Shown here: positions 3,682 through 31,352 of the stretch, piece after piece | Layout of the letters: each line of letters starts with the position of its first letter | Position numbering within the stretch: the stretch's first letter is position 1 | From: a virus | Reading direction: 5' to 3' (one strand) | DNA length: 31,352 nt | IMG/VR virus record: IMGVR_UViG_3300036985_000262 | Span: 1 to 31,352 of that record | Notes under the pieces: model-generated | What the model was told of the DNA's origin: nothing | What the model saw: only the letters and a program-made list of their open reading frames with translations | Database searches by the model: none | Made by a program: the position numbers and the translations under genes

Positions 3682-5295
3682 TTATCCTAAACTTGCGTTT
3701 GTTACAATATTTCTATTCAATGCTTGTCCTGTAGTTACATCTCCAGCAACTACATAAGTTTTAATTGGAGGTTGTTCTTTATTTAATGTTTGTGCTAATT
3801 GATTTACACCTGTATTTCCTACTACATTGAAAGAAGGAGCAGAAGCACCACCGCCAGTTGCTCCTCCTGACGGAGCAGAACCTCCACCTCCACCAGGAAC
3901 TTTAACTGCTAAAATAGATTTAACATTTTTAATACCAGCAACAATAGCTAATCCAGCATTTATAGGAGCTAATACAGGGCCTACATAAGGTATTCCAACA
4001 GTAGCATCGTAAGCCTTTTGAGCAGAACTAAAAGTATTAATTGTAGCGCTTGCAACCGCGGCAGCTTTTCCAGCAGCAGTTTCTTTTCCTAATAATTCAG
4101 ACATTCCAGATAAAGTATTTGCAACGGCATCAACAGCATCTAATTTAGCTTTCTTTTCAGCAGCGGCTAAAGCTATTTTTGCGTCTGTTATTGCTTTTTC
4201 ATCTGCTAATGTTTTATCATTTATCGCTTTTGTATCAGCAGCTATTTTATCGGCATTCTCTTTATTTATAGCATCTAAAGTTTCATTATGCGTTTGAGTT
4301 AATAACGCTGTATCTAAATTATTTGCTTCAAGAATTGCTTTCTTTTCTAAATATTCTCTTTGTTCTTTTTGTGCTGGAGTTTCTCTTGATTTATTTAACT
4401 CATCTAAAATAGCCATTGCGTCTTTAGCAGATTGCATTTGTGCATCTAACTTTTCTTTTGCTATTCTATCTAATTCAGCTTTTTCTTCTTCAGCTTTTTT
4501 AATTGCTTTGTCTTTAGCTTTCTGTTCGTTTTCTGCTTTTTTCTCTAATGCAGCTTTTCTATTTTCTTCTCGCTTTTCTATTTCTGCTTTCTCGGACGCT
4601 GTTAGTTCTTTTGAACCTTCAGTAAAACGTTTCATACTTTCTCCGTATGATTGTTGTGTCTTTTTAAAACTTCCGCCAACTTGGTCTATACCTTCAGAAA
4701 TAGCATCTCCATCTAAAGTGAAAACTCCTTTTAAAATTTTCATTGCTCCAGCACCTGATTCTTTTAAGAAAGTAAAGTAAGCCATCATAGCAGAATAAAC
4801 AGCTCCAATACCTTTTGTAACATAAGGCAAAGCATCTGTAGCTAAATCAACCATTGTATTAAATAATGGTTCTACTGCTCTAAATACTCCTTGAAATATT
4901 TTTTTAATTCCATCTAATAAAGGTTGCAATTTTTTCATTGCTCCTTCATTTTCAGAGAATGCAGCAACTAATCCACCAAGTAAAGAAACTATTAATCCAA
5001 TTCCTGTAGCTTTTAATGCACCACCAAAAGATTGTGTAGCTACTTTTGCTCTATTAATAGAAGTACCTAATGCGCCTAACGGTCCACCAGCCATTTCCAA
5101 ACTATCAACCCAATCAGATGAAGCGTTCTTAGAAGATTTAATTTTATCTTCTAAATCATCTATTTGATTATATAACTTTTTAAATTCTTCAGAACCTGCA
5201 GCAGTATCTTTTAATTGTCTTTTAAGTTGTCTTAAACCAGCAATAGATTCTTCTACATTACTTCGAATATCTAATTCAACTACTTTCTTTTCCAT
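3682..5295 (-). CDS. Tail tape measure protein
   Basis: A 537-aa protein with a coiled-coil N-terminus (about 15-55), a hydrophobic membrane-like segment (about 96-113, rich in G, L, I and V), a long charged helical region full of K, E and A (about 225-400), and a Gly/Ser/Pro-rich C-terminal part (about 465-500). This architecture is typical of tape measure proteins, which set tail length and enter the cell with the DNA. At about 0.15 nm per residue it would give a tail near 80 nm (inference). It is short for the family. It overlaps the preceding 48-aa gene by 16 bases. Confidence 0.85.
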   Translation of the reverse strand: MEKKVVELDIRSNVEESIAGLRQLKRQLKDTAAGSEEFKKLYNQIDDLEDKIKSSKNASSDWVDSLEMAGGPLGALGTSINRAKVATQSFGGALKATGIGLIVSLLGGLVAAFSENEGAMKKLQPLLDGIKKIFQGVFRAVEPLFNTMVDLATDALPYVTKGIGAVYSAMMAYFTFLKESGAGAMKILKGVFTLDGDAISEGIDQVGGSFKKTQQSYGESMKRFTEGSKELTASEKAEIEKREENRKAALEKKAENEQKAKDKAIKKAEEEKAELDRIAKEKLDAQMQSAKDAMAILDELNKSRETPAQKEQREYLEKKAILEANNLDTALLTQTHNETLDAINKENADKIAADTKAINDKTLADEKAITDAKIALAAAEKKAKLDAVDAVANTLSGMSELLGKETAAGKAAAVASATINTFSSAQKAYDATVGIPYVGPVLAPINAGLAIVAGIKNVKSILAVKVPGGGGGSAPSGGATGGGASAPSFNVVGNTGVNQLAQTLNKEQPPIKTYVVAGDVTTGQALNRNIVTNASLG

Positions 5296-9408: not shown

Positions 9409-9963
9409 TTATATAAATGTAAATCTATAATTCTTTTTATATCTCATAATTCTTTGATATTCTCTACCATATATAATATTTGTTGAATTACAAGCCGATA
9501 ATAATGAATCATAAAATATTCCTGTTTCTAAATCAACAACTGCTTTTGAAAATTTATGATTATCTTTAATTTTTAATTTAGATTCTTTAGTATGTTTTCT
9601 ACCAATACCTGCTTCACTCATTTTACGTTTTGTTTCAACAGAAAATTCCTTACCCCTTCTACCACTTCCTAATTTATATCTTGTTTCTTCATCAGGATTA
9701 AATTGACCTTCACCACCACTATTTATATTTGTTAAATTATTAAGACCATATTCAGATATTAAAAAAATTTCTAATTCTAAAGCATCTTCTAATGTTAAAT
9801 TATCAGCAACAATTTCAATAGCATAATCAGTTTTATTTACAATGTTTTGCCAATGTTTATTTCTTCTTGTTGAATATGGTCTATTTTCATTTCCCATACC
9901 AATATAAAAAATAGCATTAGTATCTAATCTTCTATGTCTATATACTAATTTTTCTAATTGCAT
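9409..9963 (-). CDS. GIY-YIG homing endonuclease (free-standing)
   Basis: A 184-aa protein. The N-terminal GIY-YIG-type nuclease region has LVYRHRRLDTNAIFYIGMG (about 6-24) and ALELEIFLISEYGLNNLTNINSGGEG with the catalytic-type Glu of ELEIFLI. NUMOD3-like DNA-binding segments follow (RGKEFSVETKRKMSEAGIGRKHTKESKLKIK), and a NUMOD1-like end (VVDLETGIFYDSLLSAC). It would cut a gene copy lacking it and spread by repair. It sits between two tail-completion genes, overlapping the end of the upstream one by 10 bases. It is a close paralogue of the gene at 28254. It probably plays no role in the virion. Confidence 0.85.
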   Translation of the reverse strand: MQLEKLVYRHRRLDTNAIFYIGMGNENRPYSTRRNKHWQNIVNKTDYAIEIVADNLTLEDALELEIFLISEYGLNNLTNINSGGEGQFNPDEETRYKLGSGRRGKEFSVETKRKMSEAGIGRKHTKESKLKIKDNHKFSKAVVDLETGIFYDSLLSACNSTNIIYGREYQRIMRYKKNYRFTFI

Positions 9964-10412
9964 TTTGTCATTTTGTTTTCAATAGCTATGTCAAATGTAA
10001 ATGTAACACCTGCTATTTTATTTTCAAATCGTTCAGTAAAGAATTCAATGTTTGCAGTACCATTTACTAATTCATAATCTTCAGCTAATTCTCCTCGATT
10101 TAATACTTCCAAGAATCTATTAGCTACAGTTAATTGTGTGTTTAATACATCTTGTTCGTTATCATTACCTAAGAATATATCTGTTACCTTTTCTTTTGAT
10201 TCATCTACGATATCCATACATAATATAGATATATTATAATTCAATACAGGACCTTGATATGATACTGAGTTAACTATAATATGACTTAAAGGAAATATAG
10301 TTAGTTTGTTTAAATCAACTTTAAATATGTCTCCTGTTGTAACTGTATTCACAAACAAATCTTCTTGTAGTTTGTTTTTAATTACTTGTGTTATTTCGTA
10401 AAATGTACTCAT
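9954..10412 (-). CDS. Tail terminator-like protein
   Basis: A 152-aa protein with an N-terminal helix (YEITQVIKNKLQEDLFVNTVTTGDIFKVDL) followed by beta strands (PLSHIIVNSVSYQGPVLNYNISILCMDIV) and an alpha-beta C-terminal half. This pattern is known to me from Bacteroidota phages in the tail terminator or neck slot, next to the gp10-like protein. It would cap the tail tube. Its ATG at 10412 overlaps the stop of the -1-frame extension of the upstream tail-chaperone gene (TAATG), which supports that frameshift product. Confidence 0.6.
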   Translation of the reverse strand: MSTFYEITQVIKNKLQEDLFVNTVTTGDIFKVDLNKLTIFPLSHIIVNSVSYQGPVLNYNISILCMDIVDESKEKVTDIFLGNDNEQDVLNTQLTVANRFLEVLNRGELAEDYELVNGTANIEFFTERFENKIAGVTFTFDIAIENKMTKCN

Positions 10413-11151
10413 TATCTTTTTTTAATTAAATCTGATTCTATTTGATTCTTTTGCTTTTCAAATGTTAGATATGTTAAACATTGGTTAATCGGTAACTCGG
10501 TGATTCTATCAAACCTTGTAAGGTCTCCTTGAGCAAGAGCATAGATTGAACTATACCATCCCCATCTTTGTCCGAATTGTGCTGTTGCAGAATAGTCTGC
10601 ATTTCCTTGTTGTTCTCCAAATAATTCAGAGTAGACTTCAGTAATTCGTTGCCTAAATTGTAAAAAAAAATAGTAGCTCCTAATACAGCATCTAAAGGAG
10701 CGTGTTTCATAACATCGGAATATGTTATTGAACCATTATATTTTTCTATTGAATACGTATGCTTAAACTTTTGTTCTATTGGTCTATATAATACAGCCAT
10801 TGCTTTGTGCATATTATCCCAGTCTCCTATGTATGTATCTAAATCTGTATATTCTCCAAATGATATTTCTTCTAAGTTAGGAATAAATCCAAATTCTATT
10901 CCACCAAGTTTAAACGTTTGAACTAATTTATGTTCTTTAGAAAACATTGCGCTAAGTCTATTAGTTATATCGTTTACTTCAGAATATTTAATTGACGCTA
11001 CATCTTTTAAATCTATACCACAAAATAATTGAACCATCTTTTGTTGTAAGAACTCTCCTTCAGGATTATTTTTAGCAATAGACAAGAACTTTTGATATTG
11101 AATTAATTTAATTTCGTTTAATTCGGTCGGTATGTTAATTTCTAACTTCAT
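10412..11151 (-). CDS. Tail assembly chaperone, -1 frameshift product (246 aa)
   Basis: The zero frame from 11151 gives a 225-aa protein. After codon 163 there is a run of nine T (10670-10662 on the minus strand, frame ATT TTT TTT TAC). A -1 slip there continues for 83 residues as LQFRQRITEVYSELFGEQQG..., FGQRWGWYSSIYALAQGD, LTRFDRITELPINQCLTYL and ends at a TAA overlapping the next ATG (10412). This tail reads like conserved tail-chaperone sequence, whereas the zero-frame tail past the slip looks random. G/GT-type chaperones use the same device to make two products that load the tape measure. A homopolymer base error is the alternative. I consider the -1 frame real. Confidence 0.7.
10474..11151 (-). 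CDS. Tail assembly chaperone, unshifted product (225 aa)
   Basis: The product reads MKLEINIPTELNEIKLIQYQKFL at the start, which I know from a conserved gene at this position in Bacteroidota phages, upstream of tail completion and tape measure genes. Residues 1-163 are shared with the frameshift product. The final 62 residues are specific to the zero frame and low in conservation-like features. It would be the abundant short chaperone form. This is the first large gene of virion block II, preceded by a terminator (11221-11249) and a possible late promoter (11155-11202). Confidence 0.7.
   Translation of the reverse strand: MKLEINIPTELNEIKLIQYQKFLSIAKNNPEGEFLQQKMVQLFCGIDLKDVASIKYSEVNDITNRLSAMFSKEHKLVQTFKLGGIEFGFIPNLEEISFGEYTDLDTYIGDWDNMHKAMAVLYRPIEQKFKHTYSIEKYNGSITYSDVMKHAPLDAVLGATIFFYNLGNELLKSTLNYLENNKEMQTILQQHNSDKDGDGIVQSMLLLKETLQGLIESPSYRLTNV
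10662..10670 (-). other. Slippery homopolymer for -1 frameshifting (T9)
   Basis: Nine T on the minus strand inside the tail-chaperone gene. In frame they read ATT TTT TTT TAC, so a T-TTT-TTT heptamer lets both tRNAs re-pair one base back. The -1 frame is then open for 84 codons to 10412. The run is also the classic place for sequencing errors or polymerase slippage, so transcriptional slippage is a possible mechanism too. Confidence 0.65.
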
Positions 11152-11810: not shown

Positions 11811-12977
11811 TTAATATATAAAATAGTTTCCTTTATTAGGGTTCTCTAATTGACTTGTAATAGCGTAACGCATAGCATCTATTGCGTGGTTATAAGCGTC
11901 TATTGGTTTATTTAACTTGACTCCTGTTTTATCTGTTAACCATATATAGTTTCTTAATTCGTTAATTAAGTTCTTGCTTCTTGATGTTACATATACTTTA
12001 TTTTGATTGATTAAATTAAGACCGTATACGATACTATCTCTACCTTTTGTAACTGGTAATACATTATGTCCATAACTATTCAACTCAGCTATTGATTTAG
12101 GTTCAGCACAATCTGCGTGTATTATATCTTCTACTTGATTTGCTTTTAATAGATTAGATATTTCGCTATTTAATAAACCTTTCTTATAAATAACTTCATC
12201 AAATATAAACGAATCATTATATTTATACATTGCAACTAATGATGTAGGGTCGTTTGAATATCCAAAGTCCATACCATAACAAAGTATTCTTGCTTCTAAT
12301 GGTAAATCAATCTCTTGCCAATCAGGTATACATACTCCTTCTAGTGAACCTGTTTGTCCTAATCCATATACTTGCCACCAATTCGCCCAATATGAAGATG
12401 TTAATGCTTTAACTTTTGCTGATTCTATTTCTTTTACAATCGTATCACTTAACGCTTCATTATCTAAATACGTTAATGTAATAAAGTCTACATTATCTTG
12501 TGTTAGTATTTCTCTATCTACCCAAAACGTAGATGCTGGATTATAATCTAACCATATATCTCCTGAAGTTCTAATAGCCATTTGATAATATGAATCGAAG
12601 TCTATATTGTTACACTCGTTTACATATAAGATATGCCTTCTTGCTCCTCTTAATTTATCAGGTTGGTCTACAGAAAAGAATTCAATATAACTACCGTTAG
12701 CAAATGTGTATTTTAAAGTACTCTTATTGAAGTTAGCATCTGTATATCTACCAAGTGCCATTATAATCTTTAAGAAGTCTTTTAAAGCACCTCTACGTAA
12801 ATGTGGTATTGATTCGGATACAACACTAATTTCTAAATAAGGTTCTTTAATTGCTTTGTCAATAAGCAAAGGAAGTATTCCAAATGTTTTACCAGCAGAT
12901 GTTCCACCTCGCACGACTTTAATACGTTGCTTTAAACGTAATAACTTTCTTATTGCAGTAGTTAATATAAACTCCAT
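11811..12977 (-). CDS. terL: Terminase large subunit
   Basis: A 388-aa protein with the two expected domains. ATPase: Walker A GGTSAGKT (24-31), Walker B-type ILYVNE (116-121) with catalytic Glu, and the C-motif region after it. Nuclease (RNase H fold): YGMDFGYSND with Asp237, HADCAEP with Asp289 and DAYNHAIDAMRY with Asp360/Asp368. It fits the PBSX/Terminase_3 group and is of normal length. It cuts and translocates phage DNA into the prohead through the portal. The small subunit gene is 11 bases upstream. Unusually, portal lies far away, on the other side of the circle. Confidence 0.95.
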   Translation of the reverse strand: MEFILTTAIRKLLRLKQRIKVVRGGTSAGKTFGILPLLIDKAIKEPYLEISVVSESIPHLRRGALKDFLKIIMALGRYTDANFNKSTLKYTFANGSYIEFFSVDQPDKLRGARRHILYVNECNNIDFDSYYQMAIRTSGDIWLDYNPASTFWVDREILTQDNVDFITLTYLDNEALSDTIVKEIESAKVKALTSSYWANWWQVYGLGQTGSLEGVCIPDWQEIDLPLEARILCYGMDFGYSNDPTSLVAMYKYNDSFIFDEVIYKKGLLNSEISNLLKANQVEDIIHADCAEPKSIAELNSYGHNVLPVTKGRDSIVYGLNLINQNKVYVTSRSKNLINELRNYIWLTDKTGVKLNKPIDAYNHAIDAMRYAITSQLENPNKGNYFIY

Positions 12978-17097: not shown

Positions 17098-17802
17098 TTA
17101 AATATAAATGAATCTTTTTATTTTGTTTTTATTTATTTGTGATTTAAGGGAACTATAATTAATATTATAAGATTCAGAAACTTCTTTACAGCTATCAAAA
17201 TATATTCCAGTATATAAATCTAAAACAATTTTTGATTTTGGATGTTCTATTCCTTTTTTAGCTTTTTGTTTTATTAACTCTGAATTTTTTATTTTCCATT
17301 CGTCACTTCTTTTTATTCCATACATAGGATTTTTATCTCCAGCTAAAAAAACTTTTCCTTTATTCCAAGCTTGTTTTCCTAAATTTGGATGTATATTATT
17401 TTTATGCCATTTTTTAAAGAAAACCGATATTTGCTTTTTTTGAATATCACTAATTACTTTTCCTTTATGTGCTAATCCAATTTTTATTTTTGTTTCATTA
17501 CTTAAACCACTAAATTCATCCGAAAATTTAGGTAATGATAAATTAAGTCCATTATCTCCTAAAACATCAAATAAATTTCCGTAATAACATTCAAAATAAA
17601 ATTTATCTTTAGCATCACATTCATAAATTACTTCAAATTTATGGCTTTCAAAAGAATATTTAATTAATGAATTATAAATTTTAATTTGATTTTTAACCCT
17701 ATATGTTTTATATCTATAAATTCTATCTTTTAAATTAATAGTTGAACCTATATATATTTTACCTTTTGGATTTGTTATTTTATAAATATAAGCATTTTTC
17801 AT
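17098..17802 (-). CDS. GIY-YIG homing endonuclease with NUMOD modules
   Basis: A 234-aa protein. The canonical GIY-YIG start is YIYKITNPKGKIYIGSTINL (5-24) with RIYRY and the later Glu of FECYYGNLFD. NUMOD3-like segments follow (KIKIGLAHKGK, GDKNPMYGIKRSDEWKIKNS), then a NUMOD1-like end (VLDLYTGIYFDSCKEVSES). It cuts a specific intron- or gene-less allele and promotes its own spread. It lies between the MazG-like gene (TAATG overlap) and the 42-aa gene. It belongs to a different subgroup from the two at 9409 and 28254. Confidence 0.88.
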   Translation of the reverse strand: MKNAYIYKITNPKGKIYIGSTINLKDRIYRYKTYRVKNQIKIYNSLIKYSFESHKFEVIYECDAKDKFYFECYYGNLFDVLGDNGLNLSLPKFSDEFSGLSNETKIKIGLAHKGKVISDIQKKQISVFFKKWHKNNIHPNLGKQAWNKGKVFLAGDKNPMYGIKRSDEWKIKNSELIKQKAKKGIEHPKSKIVLDLYTGIYFDSCKEVSESYNINYSSLKSQINKNKIKRFIYI

Positions 17803-28181: not shown

Positions 28182-28266
28182 TTTGCTTTTCTAATTTATT
28201 TAAAAAGATTTCTAATTTTTTAACATTAGTTTCTTTCGGTTTATATGTTTCTTTTATAGTACCCAT
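28171..28266 (-). CDS. Tiny charged protein (31 aa)
   Basis: MGTIKETYKPKETNVKKLEI then FLNKLEKQNGK. ATG follows directly after an in-frame stop, overlaps the end of the GIY-YIG endonuclease gene (stop at 28254) and its own stop overlaps the next start by 11 bases. It fills the only gap between the two genes. Unknown; amphipathic helix. Tentative because of length. Confidence 0.45.
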   Translation of the reverse strand: MGTIKETYKPKETNVKKLEIFLNKLEKQNGK

Positions 28267-28862
28267 TTAAATCTTGATTTATCACTATACTTTCTTAATA
28301 AATATTTTTGATTATTGTAGTCTATATTTAAAACTTTACAAGCCTCTTTTAATCCGTAATATTCTACATTTGTTATTTTATCAATACATTTTTTTGAATT
28401 AGATATTGATAAGTTTTTTTTATGTTCTAATGAAAATTCTTTATTTTTAAAATGTGATATGTTATTTTTATAATATTCAATTAATTTACTTCTTGTTTTT
28501 TCAATATGCTCTTCAGTTGATTTTAAACCTTTATTCCAAGCAGTTTTACCTTTTAGTTTTTCACTTAATATTTTTTTAGTTTCAATAGAATGTAAATTAC
28601 CAAGATTACCCTCACCACCTAAAGTTATGTTTGATAAATTTTTTATTCCATATTCGCTAATTAAAAATATTTCTAATTCACAAGCTGTTTCCCAATCTAT
28701 ATCTTTTGCAATTATTTCAACATTATAATCTGTTTTATTAATTATATTTTTCCAATAAGAATTCCTACCATCTTTTCTATAAGCTCTTCTTTCTTCTTTA
28801 CCAATTCCAATATAAAATATTTTATTGGTATCTAATCTTCTATGCCTATATACTATTGCCAT
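28254..28862 (-). CDS. GIY-YIG homing endonuclease (paralogue of the one at 9409)
   Basis: I use the ATG at 28862 (MAIVYRHRRLDTNKIFYIGI), one base after the connector stop, not the one at 28916 inside the connector gene. This gives 202 aa. GIY-YIG-type nuclease start, ACELEIFLISEYGIKNLSNI with the Glu motif, then NUMOD3-like segments (KKILSEKLKGKTAWNKGLKS, SLEHKKNLSISNSKK) and a NUMOD1-like end (NVEYYGLKEACKVL). It is alignable along its first 100 residues with the endonuclease at 9409. It lies between head connector and tail genes. Confidence 0.85.
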   Translation of the reverse strand: MAIVYRHRRLDTNKIFYIGIGKEERRAYRKDGRNSYWKNIINKTDYNVEIIAKDIDWETACELEIFLISEYGIKNLSNITLGGEGNLGNLHSIETKKILSEKLKGKTAWNKGLKSTEEHIEKTRSKLIEYYKNNISHFKNKEFSLEHKKNLSISNSKKCIDKITNVEYYGLKEACKVLNIDYNNQKYLLRKYSDKSRFKWVL

Positions 28863-28863
28863 A

Positions 28864-29364
28864 TTATAATATCCAACCCGTGAAATTCGCATTTTGGTCC
28901 GGATATACATCTGCATTAGAATTTAAATTGTATTCTGGAAAAGAAACTTGATTAAAAGTCATATAATCTATAAAACGATTTGTATAACTTTGTGCCGTAT
29001 CACGTGCTTTTTCAATTAAAAAATCTATTTCTGTTTTATCAACAGCAGTACTATTTTCTGAACTATGTTTAAATACACCTTTCTCGCTTATTTTAATTGA
29101 TGCATAAGGTAAAAATTCTACCATAGTCCAATGTACTACCATCATTTTAATATAGTCGCTTAAAAGCGTTGTATATGGAGCAGCTAAATTACCAGCTACA
29201 ATTCCATCGTTAATCTTGTTATATAATTTAGTGCCTAAATAATTTTGAATATGTACTTGTTGAGCTTGAAAAATATATTGTGTATATGTATCAGGGTCTA
29301 CATTGCCATTTAAAATAGTATATTTAACTAAATCGTTTGTCGTAATGAATAATGCTTTTGCCAT
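28864..29364 (-). CDS. Head-tail connector-like protein (DUF6712-like)
   Basis: A 166-aa protein: MAKALFITTNDLVKYTILNG, QYIFQAQQVHIQNYLGTKLY and LLSDYIKMMVVHWTMVEFLP are marks of the DUF6712-like family in Bacteroidota phages, placed directly after portal. The helical fold is that of head completion or adaptor proteins (gp6/gp15-like). It would bind the portal ring and connect the neck. Six bases separate it from portal. Confidence 0.7.
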   Translation of the reverse strand: MAKALFITTNDLVKYTILNGNVDPDTYTQYIFQAQQVHIQNYLGTKLYNKINDGIVAGNLAAPYTTLLSDYIKMMVVHWTMVEFLPYASIKISEKGVFKHSSENSTAVDKTEIDFLIEKARDTAQSYTNRFIDYMTFNQVSFPEYNLNSNADVYPDQNANFTGWIL

Positions 29365-31164: not shown

Positions 31165-31352
31165 AAATTTTAAATTCGTTATTTGTAACGTTTGCTACGT
31201 ATTGATTTTGGTTTACTGTATAAACATCGTTTGCTTGATTTGTGCAAAATATTTTATCTTTATAAACTATATTAGAACCATTTTTAATAGTTAAATTATA
31301 AAATGTATTTTCTTTTAATGCTAAAACATTTGTTGTAGTTAAATAATAACCT
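31157..31352 (-). CDS. Conserved small phage protein, C-terminal part (cut by contig end)
   Basis: An open frame of about 64 codons enters from the window edge and ends GYYLTTTNVLALKENTFYNL, TIKNGSNIVYKDKIFCTNQ, ... NNEFKIYE, with its stop 8 bases inside the portal gene. It continues the gene at 1-194 in frame if the contig is circular. Its first 20 codons duplicate the last 20 codons of that fragment with changes. Function unknown. Confidence 0.75.
   Translation of the reverse strand, partial: GYYLTTTNVLALKENTFYNLTIKNGSNIVYKDKIFCTNQANDVYTVNQNQYVANVTNNEFKIYE
31293..31352. repeat. End repeat, right copy (matches 1-60)
   Basis: The right partner of the end repeat. Bases 31293-31318 equal 1-26; the remaining 34 differ at 11 places. 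Because the repeat length is a multiple of three, joining the ends keeps the frame. Confidence 0.8.

Follow-up and report, generated by a model that had tools for sequence, protein, structure and literature searches.

A conserved run of at least nine T points to probable polymerase slippage in a putative tail-chaperone frameshift gene of Bacteroidota phages

Introduction

The frameshift in phage tail-chaperone genes is a textbook example of ribosomal recoding. In phage lambda, one gene gives two products with a common N terminus, gpG and gpGT; ribosomes that slip close to the end of G enter a -1 frame, which adds a C-terminal domain. The gene lies between those for the major tail protein and the tape measure protein.

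Two products can also be obtained from one gene by transcriptional slippage, which is known from mxiE, spa13, spa33, and mxiA of Shigella and from tssM of Citrobacter (PMC4256274, PMC5009743). Reported slippage efficiencies range from 15 to 55% in Shigella and lie at about 20% in Citrobacter tssM (PMC4256274). In mxiE, spa13, and tssM, a long A/T run (A11 in tssM) precedes an out-of-frame downstream open reading frame, and an inserted base results in a longer fusion protein for which translational stimulators are not needed. These genes belong to secretion machines, where the ratio of products likewise matters. The two-product outcome of dnaX is reached by polymerase slippage in Thermus and by ribosomal frameshifting in Escherichia coli. 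Among viruses, the RNA-dependent polymerase of potyviruses slips on GA6 and inserts one base, which opens the overlapping P3N-PIPO frame and renders the overlap dual coded. In a 2016 review, the legend of Table 1B characterizes the viral entries for polymerase slippage solely by the sense of single-stranded RNA (PMC5009743), and we found no published report of slippage in a phage tail chaperone.

Here, we describe a gene in a 31,352-nucleotide virus record (the window, analyzed over its full length) that encodes portal, terminase, tape measure, and tail proteins and that counts Bacteroidota phages and bacterial genomes among its relatives. We think it reasonably likely, from comparative sequence analysis, that this is a G/GT-type frameshift gene of a long-tailed Bacteroidota phage whose two products would be made by polymerase slippage on T9.

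Results and Discussion

All features of the locus are on the minus strand. The gene follows the large terminase subunit gene (11811 to 12977), which lies upstream, and the tape measure protein gene (3682 to 5295; phrog_9483, E value of 8.8e-15), the expected partner of a chaperone, is located several genes downstream. Its zero frame (10474 to 11151) encodes a G-like product of 225 amino acids that is conserved at full length in relatives and matches phrog_32199, a family of unknown function. A slippery run, ATT TTT TTT TAC in the zero frame, occupies positions 10670 to 10662 and contains exactly nine T. The -1 frame extends from there for 83 amino acids (10663 to 10412, stop codon TAA included), forming a T-like tail with the motif FGQRWGWYSSIYALAQGD that is also conserved in relatives, and the fused product would have a length of 246 amino acids. 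The -1 stop overlaps the start codon of the next gene in the sequence TAATG (10410 to 10414); this gene (9954 to 10412) encodes 152 amino acids of unknown function (phrog_30964). The zero-frame stop is situated 61 bases ahead of the same ATG. The run of nine T and the open -1 frame ending at TAATG, as given in the preliminary description, were both confirmed. From its upstream stop codon to its end, the -1 frame of the window contains no ATG, GTG, or TTG, so it can be reached by a shift alone. Across relatives, an ATG directly adjoins or overlaps the -1 stop in 75 of 103 clusters, so that coupling to the downstream gene would be possible for the long form.

Relatives were collected from five viral-contig scans, one genome-contig scan, and one search of isolated phages. 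Loci were recognized by protein profile, and a T run was not required. This yielded 338 loci with an analyzable site. They encode 275 distinct fused proteins, which fall into 103 clusters when 80% identity is required and into 33 when 50% is required. Some contigs were fetched twice, and cluster counts are therefore preferable to locus counts. The bacterial search covered 397 genomes of one family and 395 of its phylum, plus three that were reached directly. It returned six strong matches, each of which has T9. Some sit in the genomes of L177 to L179, and one lies past position 2.6 million of its contig, which rules out an assembly artifact of viral contigs. Isolated phages are represented by Nonlabens phages P12024L and P12024S (26% identity), which were the sole return when three divergent relatives were compared with isolated phages by tblastn.

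Relative to the zero-frame reading, continuing past the run in the -1 frame raised the profile score of the 338 relatives by a median of 113 bits. The fused reading spanned the whole profile in 320 loci, and 15 ended at a contig edge; L110 and L312, two rows of one contig, stopped early in the tail. At the junction, every relative (338 of 338) carried T9 or T10, at the place where the preliminary description had suggested looking for a kept T run. A conserved frameshift that gives a short and a long product with a common N terminus is almost certainly real, as judged by these comparisons.

The stretch from 10474 to 10661 encodes both the zero-frame C terminus and the -1 extension. In 67 of 67 distinct close relatives, the zero frame is open to the same stop and the -1 frame is open as well, although these relatives share ancestry and are not 67 independent tests. 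When sequences were recoded so that only the zero-frame protein was kept, the -1 frame was open in 14 of 13,400 cases (0.1%), and chance thus does not account for the open -1 frame. In the reciprocal recoding, with only the -1 protein kept, the zero frame stayed open in 128 of 13,400 cases (1%). Diversity by codon position in the overlap was between that of the zero-only and -1-only regions, and the first third of the overlap follows the zero frame, with diversity values of 0.093 at second and 0.269 at third positions. Across the wider family, the zero-frame tail varies in length between 15 and 84 codons; selection on it is clear over roughly its first 20 codons and weak to moderate further on (median P of about 0.06). 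Taken together, the DNA past the run is dual coded, with both C termini under selection according to these patterns. The earlier view that the zero frame ends in weak sequence did not hold, and the possibility that it is junk past the slip site was ruled out by conservation and the recoding simulations.

Structure models were generated for the zero-frame product and the -1 tail, each folded separately. In the AlphaFold model of the former (pLDDT of 83), a helix from residue 153 to 180 spans the slip site. The -1 tail is predicted to be helical (pLDDT of 88) and also starts with a helix, which offers a possible reason for dual coding.

Run length was kept irrespective of codon register. T9 was found in phase 1 in 317 loci, in phase 2 in four, and in phase 0 in three, and T10 occurred in phase 0 in eight loci and in phase 1 in six. 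At least 15 changes of run length or register were counted on a tree from which the slip residues had been masked and whose branch support is modest. As a control, 427 other open reading frames of at least 100 codons on the same loci and strand (304 kb) were inspected: T6 occurred 146 times, T7 33 times, T8 twice, and runs of nine or more T not once, as expected if such runs cause slippage. Selection against slippage has been seen in many bacteria at nine A or T (PMC1088944).

Losses at either end of the run were matched by gains at the other. In three clusters, the 5' T is lost, with an Asp, Ala, or Gly codon before two Phe codons, and all three then have a TTN codon. In another three, the 3' T is lost (CTG), and all three have a TTT codon on the 5' side. 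Fisher tests gave P values of 3e-4 for the 5' loss and 2e-4 for the 3' loss, with the six rare clusters treated as independent; at 50% clustering, these weakened to 0.011 and 0.09. A ribosomal heptamer would outlast either loss, whereas a nine-base run would not, and the compensation therefore favors the polymerase. What all 338 relatives share is a stretch of nine or more T, whatever the codon register.

Retention of nine bases regardless of frame points to a slipping machine that does not read codons, that is, RNA polymerase, and we consider polymerase slippage probably the better explanation of the frameshift. RNA polymerase, presumably that of the host, would slip on the A9 template of the T9 coding run. 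Faithful mRNA (U9) would yield the short protein of 225 amino acids, and mRNA with one extra U (U10) would be read by ordinary ribosomes into the 246-amino-acid protein with its 83-amino-acid -1 tail. Messages with one U less or two more would enter the +1 frame and meet a stop within about two to five codons. In the relatives, the median distance from the run to the stop codon of this frame is two codons, so that mis-slipped messages would give short products.

The preliminary description had instead proposed a ribosomal -1 slip on T-TTT-TTT. Its frameshift stands as a conserved feature, whereas the ribosomal mechanism fits less well than slippage by a polymerase, given nine or more T in any register. 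Classical programmed -1 ribosomal frameshifting on this heptamer, with the additional T present for other reasons, is in our view unlikely, although it has several points in its favor. Phage tail chaperones are known to rely on this device (PMC5009743), U_UUU_UUN is among the permitted heptamers of the X_XXY_YYZ type, and a ribosomal shift that is independent of a Shine-Dalgarno (SD) sequence and lacks detectable structure is conceivable. The heptamer T_TTT_TTT is present in all 103 cluster representatives, but it is automatically part of any T9; ribosomal slippage could still contribute. However, seven T in one register would be sufficient for a ribosome, and none of the 338 relatives has seven or eight at the junction; the register shifts and compensating gains preserve nine. 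Other heptamers, such as U_UUU_UUC, are used in 0 of 103 clusters. In E. coli, U_UUU_UUU is weak, A_AAA_AAG being far more prone to shift (PMC5009743). Stimulators of a ribosomal shift were not found either. An SD-like site 5 to 18 bases upstream was present in 10 of 103 clusters, compared to about 12 expected from nearby windows. Downstream RNA folding energies, a measure not specific to pseudoknots, were equal to those of shuffled sequences and control windows (mean z of -0.16 and -0.04), and an Rfam search gave no match.

A switch at the DNA level, by which replication slippage toggles between T9 and T10 and each virion makes one product, is far less probable. Homopolymers do mutate, and one relative (L276) carries T10 with a single continuous fused frame, as such a switch would produce. 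Many in-frame copies would be expected, yet the out-of-frame arrangement is found in 337 of the 338 relatives, including all other T10 loci. This single case corresponds to the ten-T arrangement that the preliminary description had named as evidence against a frameshift. Past the run, the alternative frame of L276 still resembles the usual zero-frame tail. The locus may represent a natural reversal, with slippage then making the short form, or an assembly error.

It is slightly less probable still that the -1 tail forms a gene in its own right, with a start codon, or that translational coupling gives access to it. The two Nonlabens phages seem to suggest so, because their homologues are annotated as two separate hypothetical proteins (gp40 and gp41 in P12024L, gp38 and gp39 in P12024S), the second starting from an internal ATG, which forms TAATG together with the overlapping zero-frame stop. 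Both parts of the gene, phrog_32199 and phrog_38404, are nevertheless present in these phages with T9 at their junction, as in the window; their zero-frame tail is shorter (27 codons). The TAATG overlap, at about 4450 to 4560 in L082 and L083 (P12024L and P12024S), probably led to the two-gene annotation. The start-free -1 frame of the window argues against a separate gene. A separately started tail was looked for in relatives: an ATG placed so as to preserve 70% of it is missing from 97 of 101 clusters, and when GTG and TTG are counted too, 54 of 101 still have no such start. The portion of the tail ahead of any start is also conserved. Least probable, and close to negligible, is a sequencing error or a decaying gene: homopolymers are prone to error, but T9 and the out-of-frame layout recur in 275 distinct sequences and in bacterial assemblies, with both frames under selection.

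A role of the gene as a tail chaperone is likely, based on its architecture, its genome context, and the analogy with lambda G/GT. As in lambda, one gene would give two products with a common N terminus, the -1 frame adds a C-terminal domain, and a tape measure protein is encoded in the same genome. By this analogy, coating of the tape measure protein would fall to the short form; the long form would use its extra tail to recruit the tail tube protein. The locus differs from lambda in that T9 occurs in any register, with no stimulators found, and in that the zero frame continues for about 60 codons past the slip, giving a long dual-coded overlap. It also follows the large terminase gene instead of lying between major tail and tape measure genes. 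No sequence similarity or significant fold similarity to lambda gpG/gpGT was found. Pfam and NCBIfam gave no match to the parts of the gene, PHROGs matched solely the families of unknown function phrog_32199 and phrog_38404, and nothing usable came from PDB fold searches with both models. Among annotated structures, the best hit, in BFVD, was a weak one to the ctCpR1 tail assembly chaperone (E value of 0.087, TM score of 0.41). The previously proposed G/GT identity is plausible given the two-product architecture, with no significant family or fold match and with a gene order unlike that of lambda. The deviating gene order weakens the assignment to the lambda class but leaves the functional analogy in place.

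With somewhat less confidence, we propose that the widespread tail-chaperone frameshift has passed from the ribosome to RNA polymerase in a large group of Bacteroidota phages, where T9 or T10 in any register would allow the polymerase to set the ratio of short to long product and the DNA past the run would encode two selected C termini. SD sequences, a usual stimulator of shifts, are not recognized by Bacteroidia ribosomes (PMC6847099, PMC9976891), which suggests a reason for the use of a polymerase device. If correct, this would parallel dnaX and imply that selection acts on the product ratio and not on the device. The outcome differs from that in dnaX, where slippage gives a truncated product, whereas the product here is extended. 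Compared to mxiE, spa13, and tssM, which are bacterial genes, it would concern a gene of double-stranded DNA phages across a large viral family, and, compared to the RNA potyviruses, it would add double-stranded DNA phages to the viruses that use polymerase slippage. The families phrog_32199 and phrog_38404 would become two parts of one gene, which predictors that look for a heptamer plus stimulator would misjudge.

Two distant matches were recorded beyond the 338 loci. A genome match (L347) is a single-frame protein of 248 amino acids that resembles profile positions 1 to 195 weakly, at 24 bits, and contains no T run; it may be a fused relative or may be unrelated. Flavobacterium phage 6H (L340) gave a distant fold match at 9900 to 11000. 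Its matching gene has no T run of seven or more, the candidate junction being T6 followed by C and not T9, and the downstream sequence appears to be spread over more than one frame, through errors in sequencing or a different arrangement; this phage was therefore left out of the comparison.

Within similar coding sequences, both ends of the window record (1 to 60 and 31293 to 31352) match each other at 85% DNA identity over about 61 bases. They do not form an identical terminal repeat and represent either segments that are paralogous or a circular join that is imperfect. The window also contains three related putative homing endonuclease genes (9409 to 9963, 28254 to 28916, and 17098 to 17802; minus strand) with GIY-YIG/NUMOD3 motifs, some of which score under the Pfam cutoff. 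The first two share 71% DNA identity across 249 bases, and both adjoin structural genes.
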